A stretch of 64,000 nucleotides of DNA. Source: Eucalyptus grandis (lineage: Eukaryota; Streptophyta; Magnoliopsida; Myrtales; Myrtaceae). The stretch covers positions 40,146,072 through 40,210,071 of the forward strand of contig NC_052614.1 of assembly GCF_016545825.1 (NCBI RefSeq), written 5' to 3'. Positions 26,820 through 52,400 of the stretch are shown piece by piece; within the stretch, counting starts at the first letter, position 1; each line of letters opens with the position of its first letter. The position numbers were made by a program, and so were the translations under genes. Below the pieces are notes generated by a model that searched no databases, was not told the DNA's origin, and saw only the letters and a program-made list of their open reading frames with translations.

Positions 26820-27830
26820 GTCATGTAAAATCATAAAAATGAGCTAGGCTTACAAATCAAATCGAATAATAATTGGCACTCGTTTATTTTTAGCTTATTT
26901 CAAATTTAAGTGGAATTTGTGTAGTTTACCTAATTAAGTTGACTTAGCGAGTCCCATTAAGATGCTAGCTTAGGGACGGCCCAAAGGAAGACACTTAGTG
27001 CCATTATTTTGTGCACGGAGGCTCTAGCTCATACTATAGCTTTCGCAATGAAATAAATAGAATTTCACGTTTCGATCTTTTCTCTCTACTTATATTTGTT
27101 CGCTTATATAGATGTTATCATCTTGAAACATTTTAATAGGGCAAAACGCATTAAAAAGAAGCAACTCATGGTTTTGCTTATGATATCACCAAACCGTGAT
27201 CTCGGGATGCAACCTCTTTTCACTCCCTAGTCACCCACATACTAATTCTTGAACTTTTTATCCTCTAAATATCGATGACGTGAAGCAAAATTTACCACAC
27301 ATGTGCACGAGCAAAAATCAAATTCACCTGATAAGAAAGCATTTCAAAATCAAAAGAAGAAAAATATCATTCACGATATCATAAGAATATCACTCAAGAA
27401 AGAGAAAATCCAATTACAGCCTATTCATGTTTTGGACCCATCGTAAGGACAATCCAAGCGGGATGAACAAAAGTAAATTAAAAAAAAAAAGGCAAAATGG
27501 AGTAGCAAATTGTTTCGAGAAGGACGGAAAACACTTTCTCTCTCTCTATCGCCCCCCATCACATGAAATTCGAAGATAGGTCGGAAAAGTCAAAGAGTCA
27601 AACAAGCTGCCTCGATCCCACCACAATTAAGATTAAATTAAAAGCCCCTCTCTTATTTTAAAGTGTTAATTTAAACACTTGCTCAAACACCAGCTCCTCT
27701 TTCCCCTGCTGCGGCTTTGCATTTTTCACACGTTCACTACATTAAATTAAAATAATAATTAAATTATTATTATTCTCCATTATTTTCCTTCTTCTTTTTC
27801 CTTCTTCTTTATTGGCCCAACCCCCGGTCT
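26820..27830. promoter_or_regulatory. upstream region of the MYB gene
   Basis: About 1 kb of AT-rich DNA before the MYB TATA box, ending in pyrimidine-rich blocks from 27780. No individual transcription-factor site stands out enough to name. Confidence 0.35.
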
Positions 27831-27837
27831 TTTCCTC

Positions 27838-27844
27838 TATAAAA
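27838..27844 (+). promoter_or_regulatory. TATA box of the MYB gene
   Basis: TATAAAA in CCTCTATAAAAGCCCC, about 235 bases before the MYB start codon. It is followed by a CT-rich leader (27885-27960) typical of plant 5' UTRs, which would place transcription start near 27870. Confidence 0.65.
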
Positions 27845-28077
27845 GCCCCACCTTCTCTGTCCTCCCTGTACTAATCCCATCAATCTCTCTTCCTTCCTCT
27901 CTCTCTCTTTCTATCTATCTCACTCTCTCTCTCATCGCAAAGGCCCGAGTTCTCTCTCTCCTCGTTCTTCCACCTTTTCTCCGCCATCAATCAAACCAGT
28001 CGGTCAGTCCCCACGAGGCGAGGGAGGCGGAGACATCGAGAACGGGGCTAGCGGCGGCCGAGAGGAGGACGGTGAGG

Positions 28078-29802
28078 ATGGACGCGAAGGGGATGATCAG
28101 AGGCGCCCACCACAGCGGCAGCGGCGGCGACAGCGACAGCCAGGAGGACGATCAGCAGGCGATTATGGAGGACTTGCGGAGAGGTCCGTGGACGGTGGAG
28201 GAGGACCTCACCCTCGTCAATTACATTGCCAACCACGGCGAAGGACGCTGGAACTCCCTCGCCCGCAGCGCAGGTAAATTACGGATCAATATTCAAGAAC
28301 TCTCGAGATTTACTGGTGCATGTTATGGAAGGTGAGCATCGTGAAGTTAGTGGGTTTGTGGATCGATGAACCGGGGTCATTCTCGGATCGAAAGCGAAGC
28401 CCGGGCCTCTCTTTCAACTCGGCTTGAGCCGTCCATCTGTCCAAGAAGCCAAACGTGAAATGCGTTGGACTTGGAGTCAAAGTGGAAAGCCAAGCGGGAC
28501 ACGTTTTCTCTATAGAGAACCCCACATGTGAAAAATACAGCTCGCCTATTTTTCTTTCTTCCTCTTCTTTATCGTCTTTTTCATTCGAGACTAGAGGAGA
28601 TGTGCGGGTTGCGTATTCCTTAAAAGAATCAAAGAACATCATGGGAAGTATGTCGTCGTATGGCCGGTGGTTTCTTTTTGAAACCCGCCCGCTTTAAGTT
28701 GGAAGTAAAAGGTTGCGTAAATCGAAAAAGCATGCGCACGGGAGGTCGATAGGGATGCCTTGCTGTCCATTCCATTTGCTGTATCTTTGATGGCTACTTT
28801 TACCCAGAAAAAAGAACTCGGCTCTATTCATTCTAATCAATGCTCGTGTTTGCGACGACGGATTCAACAGGTTTGAAACGGACCGGAAAGAGTTGCCGGC
28901 TGCGGTGGCTGAATTACCTCCGCCCCGACGTTCGGCGCGGGAACATAACCCTCGAAGAGCAGCTCTTGATCCTCGAGCTCCATTCCCGCTGGGGCAATCG
29001 GTACGTATCTCTATGCCCCCCAAAATATGGAGACATGTTCATTTCCCGTCTAGATGGAAGTATTGACGGTTTTCTTTTCCGGGTGATTATCTATAGATGG
29101 TCGAAGATCGCGCAACACTTGCCGGGCAGGACCGACAACGAGATCAAGAACTACTGGCGAACCCGGGTGCAGAAGCACGCGAAGCAGCTCAAATGTGACG
29201 TCAACAGCAAGCAGTTCAAGGACGCCATGAAATACCTCTGGATGCCGAGGCTGGTCGAGAGGATCCAAGCCGCCTCCGCCTCTGTCTCGACCGCTACTGT
29301 CGCCGCCGCCGCCATGGCAGCCCCACCCACAATGGCCACCACCGCAGCATCCAACATCGGCGGCATGGCTTTCCCGCCGGCCCTGGCGGGCATGGGCGGC
29401 GACTTCAGGGGCGGGCGACTGAATGTGGCGCCCAGCTACAGCACCCCGGAGAACTCCTGCACGACGGCGTCTTCCGACTCATTCGGTGCGCAGGTCTCAC
29501 CCGTCTCGGACCTTACCGACCTGACCGAGTACTACCCTATCCCGGCCGGCGACAACCCGAACCCGGATTACTACCAGCCTAACAATAATGGCCAAGGATG
29601 CTACCAGGAGTCGTCTCTTACTAGTCCCTGTGCATACTTCAACAACTATGGAATGGACTTCCAAGCGTGCATGGATCAGAACAACAATCAGTGGTTGGAC
29701 GATGGGGGCACGTCGGACAACTTGTGGAATTTGGCGGATGATTGGTACTCACAACAGCAGCAGCAGCCGCACGCAGCTTCTATCATCAACAATAACTTCT
29801 GA
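28078..29802 (+). CDS. R2R3-MYB transcription factor, subgroup 20 type (MYB108/MYB62/MYB2-like)
   Basis: Three exons, 28078-28273, 28871-29000 and 29097-29802, join with GT-AG borders into 343 codons plus TGA. R2 carries Trp at residues 38, 58 and 78 with 19-residue spacing. R3 has Ile91 in place of the first Trp (usual in plants), then Trp110 and Trp129. Intron positions are the classic R2R3-MYB ones. After R3 comes [20 protein letters not shown], the WMPRL motif of the MYB2/62/78/108/112/116 subgroup, known for stress, ABA, phosphate-starvation, senescence and anther functions. The C-terminus is Ala-, Asn- and Gln-rich and ends in a [11 protein letters not shown] acidic/aromatic patch, a likely activation region. 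The ATG at 28078 was chosen; an upstream in-frame GTG is not a plausible plant start. Nuclear DNA-binding regulator. Which subgroup member is orthologous cannot be decided here. Confidence 0.93.
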
Positions 29803-51605: not shown

Positions 51606-51626
51606 TAGCTCAGGAGGGATAGACAA
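51606..51626 (-). promoter_or_regulatory. miR390 3' target site (cleavable)
   Basis: Complementary to miR390 at miRNA positions 2-17 without a mismatch. Positions 1 and 18-21 do not pair. The paired centre allows slicing between 51615 and 51616, which would set the siRNA register. The unpaired miRNA 3' end is as in other TAS3 genes. Confidence 0.93.
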
Positions 51627-51742
51627 GGAAGGAGAAGATGAGTTGGGTGGGAACGGGGAAGGCAGGCGACCGTACTCTACATCGCTCACTCGCGATTCAG
51701 AGCCCGGGGCCGGAAGGAGAAGTGACGGGGCGGGAACGGAGG

Positions 51743-51763
51743 GGGGTCTTACAAGGTCAAGAA
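51743..51763 (-). ncRNA. tasiARF (downstream unit)
   Basis: On the minus strand this reads TTCTTGACCTTGTAAGACC followed by CC, the canonical tasiARF. It starts one base off the seventh 21-nt register counted from the predicted slice point (51615/51616), corresponding to Arabidopsis TAS3 5'D7(+). Confidence 0.95.
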
Positions 51764-51784
51764 AAGGTCTTACAAGGTCAAGAA
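51764..51784 (-). ncRNA. tasiARF (upstream unit)
   Basis: Reads TTCTTGACCTTGTAAGACC followed by TT, directly abutting the other unit with no gap, so the two are 21 nt in phase with each other. Corresponds to 5'D8(+). The first 19 bases are identical in both units, which is the part that pairs with ARF mRNAs. Confidence 0.95.
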
Positions 51785-51853
51785 GGGCGGAACGGGACGG
51801 GGAGGACGAGAATATAGAAATGGAAAAATGAAAAAAGAGAAGTAGTGGGGAAA

Positions 51854-51874
51854 AAGCTCAGATAGGATAGCGCC
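51854..51874 (-). promoter_or_regulatory. miR390 5' target site (non-cleavable)
   Basis: Complementary to miR390 at 18 of 21 positions. The only mismatches are miRNA positions 9, 10 and 11, exactly the slicing centre. That pattern is the known hallmark of the TAS3 5' site, which binds AGO7-miR390 without being cut. Confidence 0.93.
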
Positions 51875-51877
51875 AAA

Positions 51878-52400
51878 TTAGCACGAGCAAGCATCCATTG
51901 CTAAAGAGCTCCGTGTTGCTGCTTTTGCTTGAAATCCAGCAAAGATTCCATCTATGGGGACCTCTTCAAGTTGACCTACAAAAGATAAAGTAATATCAAT
52001 ATATTAAATTGGTGGAGATGAATTTGGAGTGCGAAGAGAATCGAATCAGGTACATGGCGCCCGTGGTTTTTCCTCGAAACAATCACTGAGATCAACGAAA
52101 GGCGCAACTCGTGATCAAGAAAACATATGCATGTGGAGGAACGACTGCTTTCGAGCTTCAGCAGCATCACATGCGGCTTACATCTCCATGCGTAAAAGCA
52201 AAGATCATCCGGCATTGAGAACAGGCCAAGACTGTCCGGAAAGCGTCGGGCGGTAATTGATTCAGCAGGCGAAAAGAAAAGAGAAGAACACAAGCAGGCG
52301 TCACGCCATGAACACGCGAGGGGTCCATGGTGTCCACGGTGTGGAACCGTAGTCTGATGATGCAAAGCCTACCTTGAAGATACGCGCGCTTGCGTCTCAT
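51878..52400 (-). CDS. TAS3 small upstream ORF (41 codons if spliced)
   Basis: Exon part 52400-52373 (ATG, MRRKRAYLQ) ends AAG|GTAGG. Exon part 51975-51878 begins after TTTTGTAG. Joined, they stay open through GQLEEVPIDGIF and end LAMDACSC-TAA. The stop codon is three bases upstream of the 5' miR390 site. Short ORFs ending just before this site are known in other plants to bring ribosomes to AGO7-SGS3, where they stall. Without splicing the same stop still closes a six-codon ORF (ATG at 51898), and a separate 16-codon ORF runs from 51951 to 51901. Splicing is inferred from sequence only. The peptide itself need not be functional. Confidence 0.6.

Follow-up and report, generated by a model that had tools for sequence, protein, structure and literature searches.

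The minus strand of positions 51606 to 51874 holds a genuine TAS3 gene, ordinary for its class, and we are highly confident that it is an intact, probably working eucalypt gene of the long class, with two miR390 hits and two tasiARFs and with predicted transcription from the minus strand. TAS3 is a well-known plant gene whose small RNAs turn down auxin-response genes, and the AGO7-RDR6-DCL4 pathway and the targets ARF2, ARF3 and ARF4 are established for it. We read the minus strand of this interval directly and scanned both strands of the window (the whole 64-kb stretch of DNA that was analyzed) with the miR390 complement and the tasiARF core. An earlier reading of the letters alone (the sequence-only reading) had proposed a complete TAS3 gene here, and all four elements, namely, two miR390 complementarities and two copies of the 19-base tasiARF core, were found where it had placed them on the minus strand. 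The features, including a possible leader short open reading frame (sORF) upstream, are as follows.

51606..51626, minus strand: 3' miR390 site, predicted to be cut at 51616/51615; 5 differences from the perfect complement
51616..51853, minus strand: region predicted to yield phased siRNAs; 238 nt from the 5' site to the predicted cut
51743..51763, minus strand: tasiARF, conventionally 5'D7(+); core 51745-51763; start to cut 148 nt = 7 x 21 + 1
51764..51784, minus strand: tasiARF, conventionally 5'D8(+); core 51766-51784; start to cut 169 nt = 8 x 21 + 1
51854..51874, minus strand: 5' miR390 site, predicted to be bound and uncut; 3 differences from the perfect complement
51878..51975, minus strand: second part of a possible 41-aa leader sORF; with its TAA ending 3 nt upstream of the 5' miR390 site
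51976..52372, minus strand: predicted intron of 397 nt, GTAGGC...TTTTGTAG
52373..52400, minus strand: first part of the possible leader sORF (ATG at 52400); donor CAAG/GTAGGC; splicing predicted by eye

The miR390 complement showed 3 and 5 mismatches at the two sites, and its next best match in the 64-kb window had 6; the pairing penalties of the two sites were 4.0 and 5. Base-by-base pairing revealed that the 5' site contains a single true mismatch, at miR390 position 10, flanked by G:U pairs at positions 9 and 11. At the 3' site, positions 2 to 17 are paired, including positions 9 to 11, and mismatches are confined to position 1 and positions 18 to 21. Cleavage opposite miR390 positions 10 and 11 is predicted between 51616 and 51615, the border proposed previously. 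An uncut 5' site combined with a cut 3' site is a known pattern in the cited passages of PMC5907777 and PMC4680215 and is matched by the pairing observed here. Arabidopsis TAS3a (AT3G17185), as described in excerpts of PMC5907777 and PMC3225373, likewise has two miR390 sites, the 5' site uncut and the 3' site cut, and near-identical D7 and D8 tasiARFs directed against ARF2, ARF3 and ARF4; in the eucalypt locus the cutting is predicted. The eucalypt tasiARFs differ from those of Arabidopsis TAS3a in having G+C-rich flanks.

The tasiARF core TTCTTGACCTTGTAAGACC (19 bases) is present on the minus strand as two exact copies 21 nt apart, and its third-best match on either strand of the window had 5 mismatches. 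Chance was modeled with 300 dinucleotide-preserving shuffles (600 strands), in which every match to the core had at least 3 mismatches; miR390-like sites with 5 or fewer mismatches arose 15 times altogether, never two of them within 400 nt of each other. The exact 19-mer had two matches in the 616.5-Mb assembly (36 contigs), both at this locus on contig 3. One match was found in the prokaryote genome collection, and the tandem tasiARF pattern had 0 matches in IMG/VR. Allowing up to 2 mismatches, the assembly contained 15 sites, compared with 6 for the reversed control. Two of the 15 belong to this TAS3 locus, six fall in four other loci, and one is at the locus L015, described below; the remaining six (L010, L011, L013, L014, L016, and L017) equal the reversed-control hits in number.

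Strict 21-nt steps from the predicted cut would place D7 at 51742-51762 and D8 at 51763-51783. The conventional tasiARFs, which start TTCTTG, begin one base upstream of this register. The sequence-only reading had predicted phasing from 51616 with peaks at 51743-51763 and 51764-51784; its starting point and cut agree with ours, whereas the peak intervals lie one base off the strict register, and the two parts of that prediction therefore conflict by one base. In Arabidopsis TAS3a, the tasiARF-to-cut distances are presumably also 169 and 148 nt; if this is right, the offset would be normal for the class. A single dicing step of 22 nt would account for it, as would a cut shifted by one base. Olive and longan tasiARFs are described as being in phase with the 3' cut, at less than base-level detail in the excerpts cited (PMC3225373, PMC4680215), and given these examples the one-base offset counts against our best explanation. 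We found no discussion of such an offset in the TAS3 literature as excerpted.

The same genome carries both the trigger genes and the targets expected of a TAS3 gene. An exact mature miR390 lies in a strong hairpin with a star-arm match at C2:57309910 (-61.1 kcal/mol), and a second such hairpin is found at C11:39772941 (-57.6 kcal/mol). Matches to mature miR390 within 3 mismatches numbered 30 across the assembly and 0 for the control; seven of the 30 are the two MIR390 copies, their two star arms, the 5' site of the window, L022, and L028. Frames were read at 8 of the other 23 sites, of which six proved to be leucine-rich-repeat frames and two had no long frame. The near-matches to the miR390 complement in leucine-rich-repeat frames (L021, L026, L030, L036, L045, and L046, on contigs 2, 4, 9, and 11) read GSIPPEL or similar, and several recur approximately 144 or 360 bases apart.

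Target sites for tasiARF occur at four loci, with two sites each at C2:41.39 Mb and C4:11.67 Mb and one site each at C11:46.21 Mb and C2:53.70 Mb. Read from the opposite strand, all six fall within open frames of 249 to 322 residues and encode KVLQGQE (twice), RVLQGQE, EVLQGQE, GVFQGQE, and KALQGQE. An ARF ancillary-domain exon (PF06507) is located upstream at all four loci, that at C2:53.70 Mb scoring just at the cut-off and matching solved ARF1 chains as well; the site-bearing frames themselves had no Pfam match. A protein search also identified C11:30.93 Mb as a weak relative of the site-bearing frame of C2:53.70 Mb (E 5e-5, 39% identity, one internal stop). It has a tasiARF site with 3 mismatches, and the peptide motif was sought at that site and was absent. 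With two miR390 sites, tandem tasiARFs, MIR390 hairpins and ARF target sites all present, the earlier assignment to the two-tasiARF long class stands, exact phasing excepted.

A TAS3 locus has been reported before in Eucalyptus. In the parts cited here, a 2014 paper on the ARF genes of Eucalyptus grandis describes a potential TAS3 locus and TAS3 target sites in EgrARF2A, 2B, 3, and 4 (PMC4182523). Table 1 of that paper, as excerpted, places EgrARF3 on chromosome 4 at 10.8 Mb, EgrARF4 and EgrARF2B on chromosome 2 at 46.9 and 60.1 Mb, respectively, and EgrARF2A and EgrARF24 on chromosome 11 at 29.2 and 43.4 Mb, respectively. Assuming that contig numbers correspond to chromosomes, we infer that our target loci fit ARF4, ARF3, ARF2B, ARF2A (C11:30.93 Mb), and ARF24 (C11:46.21 Mb). 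The last of these, L009 (C11:46207842-46210860), is an ARF gene whose tasiARF site has 1 mismatch and encodes GVFQGQE; it lies close to the published position of EgrARF24, an assignment made by position alone. EgrARF24 is absent from the TAS3 targets named in the excerpts of the 2014 study (PMC4182523). The published locus comes from what is presumably the same genus, and one TAS3 locus with EgrARF2A, 2B, 3, and 4 as targets is given in the excerpts of PMC4182523. Since tandem exact tasiARFs occur at only one locus in the assembly, the published TAS3 most likely corresponds to this gene or to an ortholog of it. The excerpted account in PMC4182523 makes no mention of MIR390 genes, register or leader ORFs, all three of which are described here for the present genome.

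The ARF peptides bear on another explanation of the repeat, namely, that it is an antisense scrap of an ARF coding gene, the plus strand encoding KVLQGQE, which is also the peptide specified by ARF genes where tasiARF targets them. The plus-strand ORF at 51638-51817 indeed reads GVLQGQEKVLQGQEG, and KVLQGQE and its variants are found at the sites of real ARF genes. However, the scanned plus-strand frames contain no ARF or other Pfam domain, and the match is only as long as an siRNA, is repeated head to tail, and sits between two miR390 sites; in the two ARF loci with paired sites, the sites are approximately 200 bases apart rather than adjacent. We consider an ARF scrap extremely improbable. 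A coding reading more generally was rejected on the basis of 0 Pfam matches among the six frames overlapping 51606-51874 and the two leader frames. The claim of the sequence-only reading that the region has no real protein gene accordingly survives for conventional proteins (all 8 scanned frames lacked a Pfam match) and is limited to these, because the leader may carry a short translated ORF.

Conventional genes do occur elsewhere in the window. On the minus strand, positions 254-1342 hold an exon that encodes an NFACT-R RNA-binding domain, and on the plus strand a MYB108-type R2R3-MYB gene occupies 27763-29802. The best four named relatives of the R2R3-MYB frame at 28837-29799, a query that included an intron translated in frame, were all Myrtaceae proteins, from Eucalyptus globulus (88% identity), Corymbia (74%), Syzygium (72%) and Rhodamnia (72%), and they indicate that the genome is probably that of a eucalypt.

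Small RNAs of approximately 21 nt would also result if the interval were a microRNA gene or encoded another hairpin RNA, and this is the sole point in favor of such a reading. Against it, the predicted fold of the 269-nt RNA was no better than that of shuffled sequences (z = +0.82; 156 of 200 shuffles were at least as stable), and Rfam gave no match at threshold. With no stable fold-back for 51606-51874 and no such match, the hairpin reading was rejected, and its probability appears negligible. That no Rfam family reached threshold also counts against our best explanation, in so far as Rfam includes a TAS3 family; none of 11 weak matches below the gathering scores overlapped 51606-51874.

To assess conservation, we searched with the plus-strand ORF that spans the tandem (58 of its 59 residues) and obtained two relatives among three candidates, both on short contigs. 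Between these two relatives (P0121 and P0122), 0 of 13 residues differ in VLQGQEKVLQGQE and 14 of 51 differ elsewhere (one-sided Fisher p = 0.027). The unchanged VLQGQEKVLQGQE lends modest support, from one comparison, to conservation of the tandem core. The same data touch on the possibility that the locus is a decayed or silent TAS3 copy, its motifs kept and unexpressed, with which the poorly conserved flanks (the 14 of 51 differing residues) would agree. In contrast, all four motifs are intact, the tandem core is identical in a relative, and this is the sole tandem-tasiARF locus in an assembly that retains both the trigger and the targets. These observations make a silent copy very unlikely and favor the intact, probably working TAS3 gene.

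At least two single-tasiARF TAS3-like loci are also present in the assembly. The first, L015/L022 (C11:9147197; locus C11:9145697-9148715), combines a miR390 site that lacks a central mismatch (penalty 2.0) with one tasiARF, which has 2 mismatches and lies 76 nt downstream of the miR390 site from start to start.

L015, 1575-1595 and 1501-1519 (within-locus positions), minus strand: miR390 site and tasiARF, respectively

The second, L028 (C3:1501599), has on its minus strand a miR390 site (penalty 3.0) and, 54 nt downstream, a tasiARF-like sequence with 3 mismatches. No clear second miR390 site was found within 800 nt in either locus, the best downstream penalties in L015 and L028 being 10.5 and 10.0. 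As the background penalty had a 5th percentile of 10.0 and a median of 12.25, these best candidates lie at the low end of background, and therefore no second site is claimed for either locus; a degenerate second site in L028, 168 nt downstream, is possible. We regard L015 and L028 as candidate short TAS3 genes with a single tasiARF. A short TAS3 type, in some cases with a single site, is described for other dicots in the passages cited (PMC6572396, PMC3446319), and L015 and L028 are alike in this respect. In apple, according to the cited portion of PMC3446319, the long gene MdTAS3-1 has two tasiARFs and a position-10 mismatch in its 5' site, as does the window locus, and the short gene MdTAS3-2 has one tasiARF and no true position-10 mismatch, as do L015 and L028. 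MdTAS3-2 has two miR390 sites in that description (PMC3446319), whereas in L015 and L028 the 800 nt searched contain no clear second one.

The leader may carry a short ORF at all three loci. At the window locus, a predicted splice joins ATG...CAAG (52400-52373) to GTCAAC... (from 51975) and produces the 41-aa frame; the junction is weak taken alone, because it was noticed for opening this frame. Without splicing, the only frames ending nearby are 6 and 16 aa long, and the 6-aa frame uses the same stop. Arabidopsis TAS3a has a translated leader sORF upstream of its 5' site in the cited part of PMC11062462, to which the eucalypt frame is a possible counterpart; the Arabidopsis ORF is given there as 50 aa (PMC11062462), in comparison with 41 aa here, where the predicted splice is needed. 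A search with the 41-aa peptide found no relative; no candidate had three shared words, and conservation of the peptide is therefore unsupported, which likewise counts against our best explanation. Unspliced frames of 68 aa in L015 and 51 aa in L028 end 7 and 1 nt, respectively, before the miR390 sites of these loci. In a post hoc comparison over the window and the fetched loci, frames of at least 50 aa ended 0 to 7 nt upstream of 0.77% of positions, and frames of at least 60 aa did so for 0.51%. The leader peptides of the window locus, L015, and L028 look unrelated. We see an even chance that long and short TAS3 genes share a positional rule under which the ribosome stops at the border of the AGO7-miR390 site whatever the peptide, with L015 and L028 as single-hit TAS3 genes.

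By analogy with the known pathway, we propose that the locus would function as follows. In the TAS3 transcript, ribosomes on the short leader ORF would probably halt just ahead of the 5' miR390 site. miR390 in AGO7 would occupy this site without cleavage and would cleave the 3' site at 51616/51615. RDR6 and SGS3 would then convert the 5' cleavage fragment to double-stranded RNA, which DCL4 would dice in 21-nt steps starting at the cut end. The D7 and D8 products would be the tasiARFs and would repress their targets by guiding cleavage of ARF3-, ARF4-, and ARF2-type mRNAs.

The main use of this finding is in annotation, as the locus is flagged by no Rfam family and by no Pfam match in the 8 scanned frames. 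The leader-ORF geometry would make it simple to test whether TAS3 siRNA production generally depends on ribosome position. In a woody lineage, raw sequence confirms how a conserved developmental regulator is built, and the TAS3 locus is tied to its trigger genes and its targets within the same assembly.
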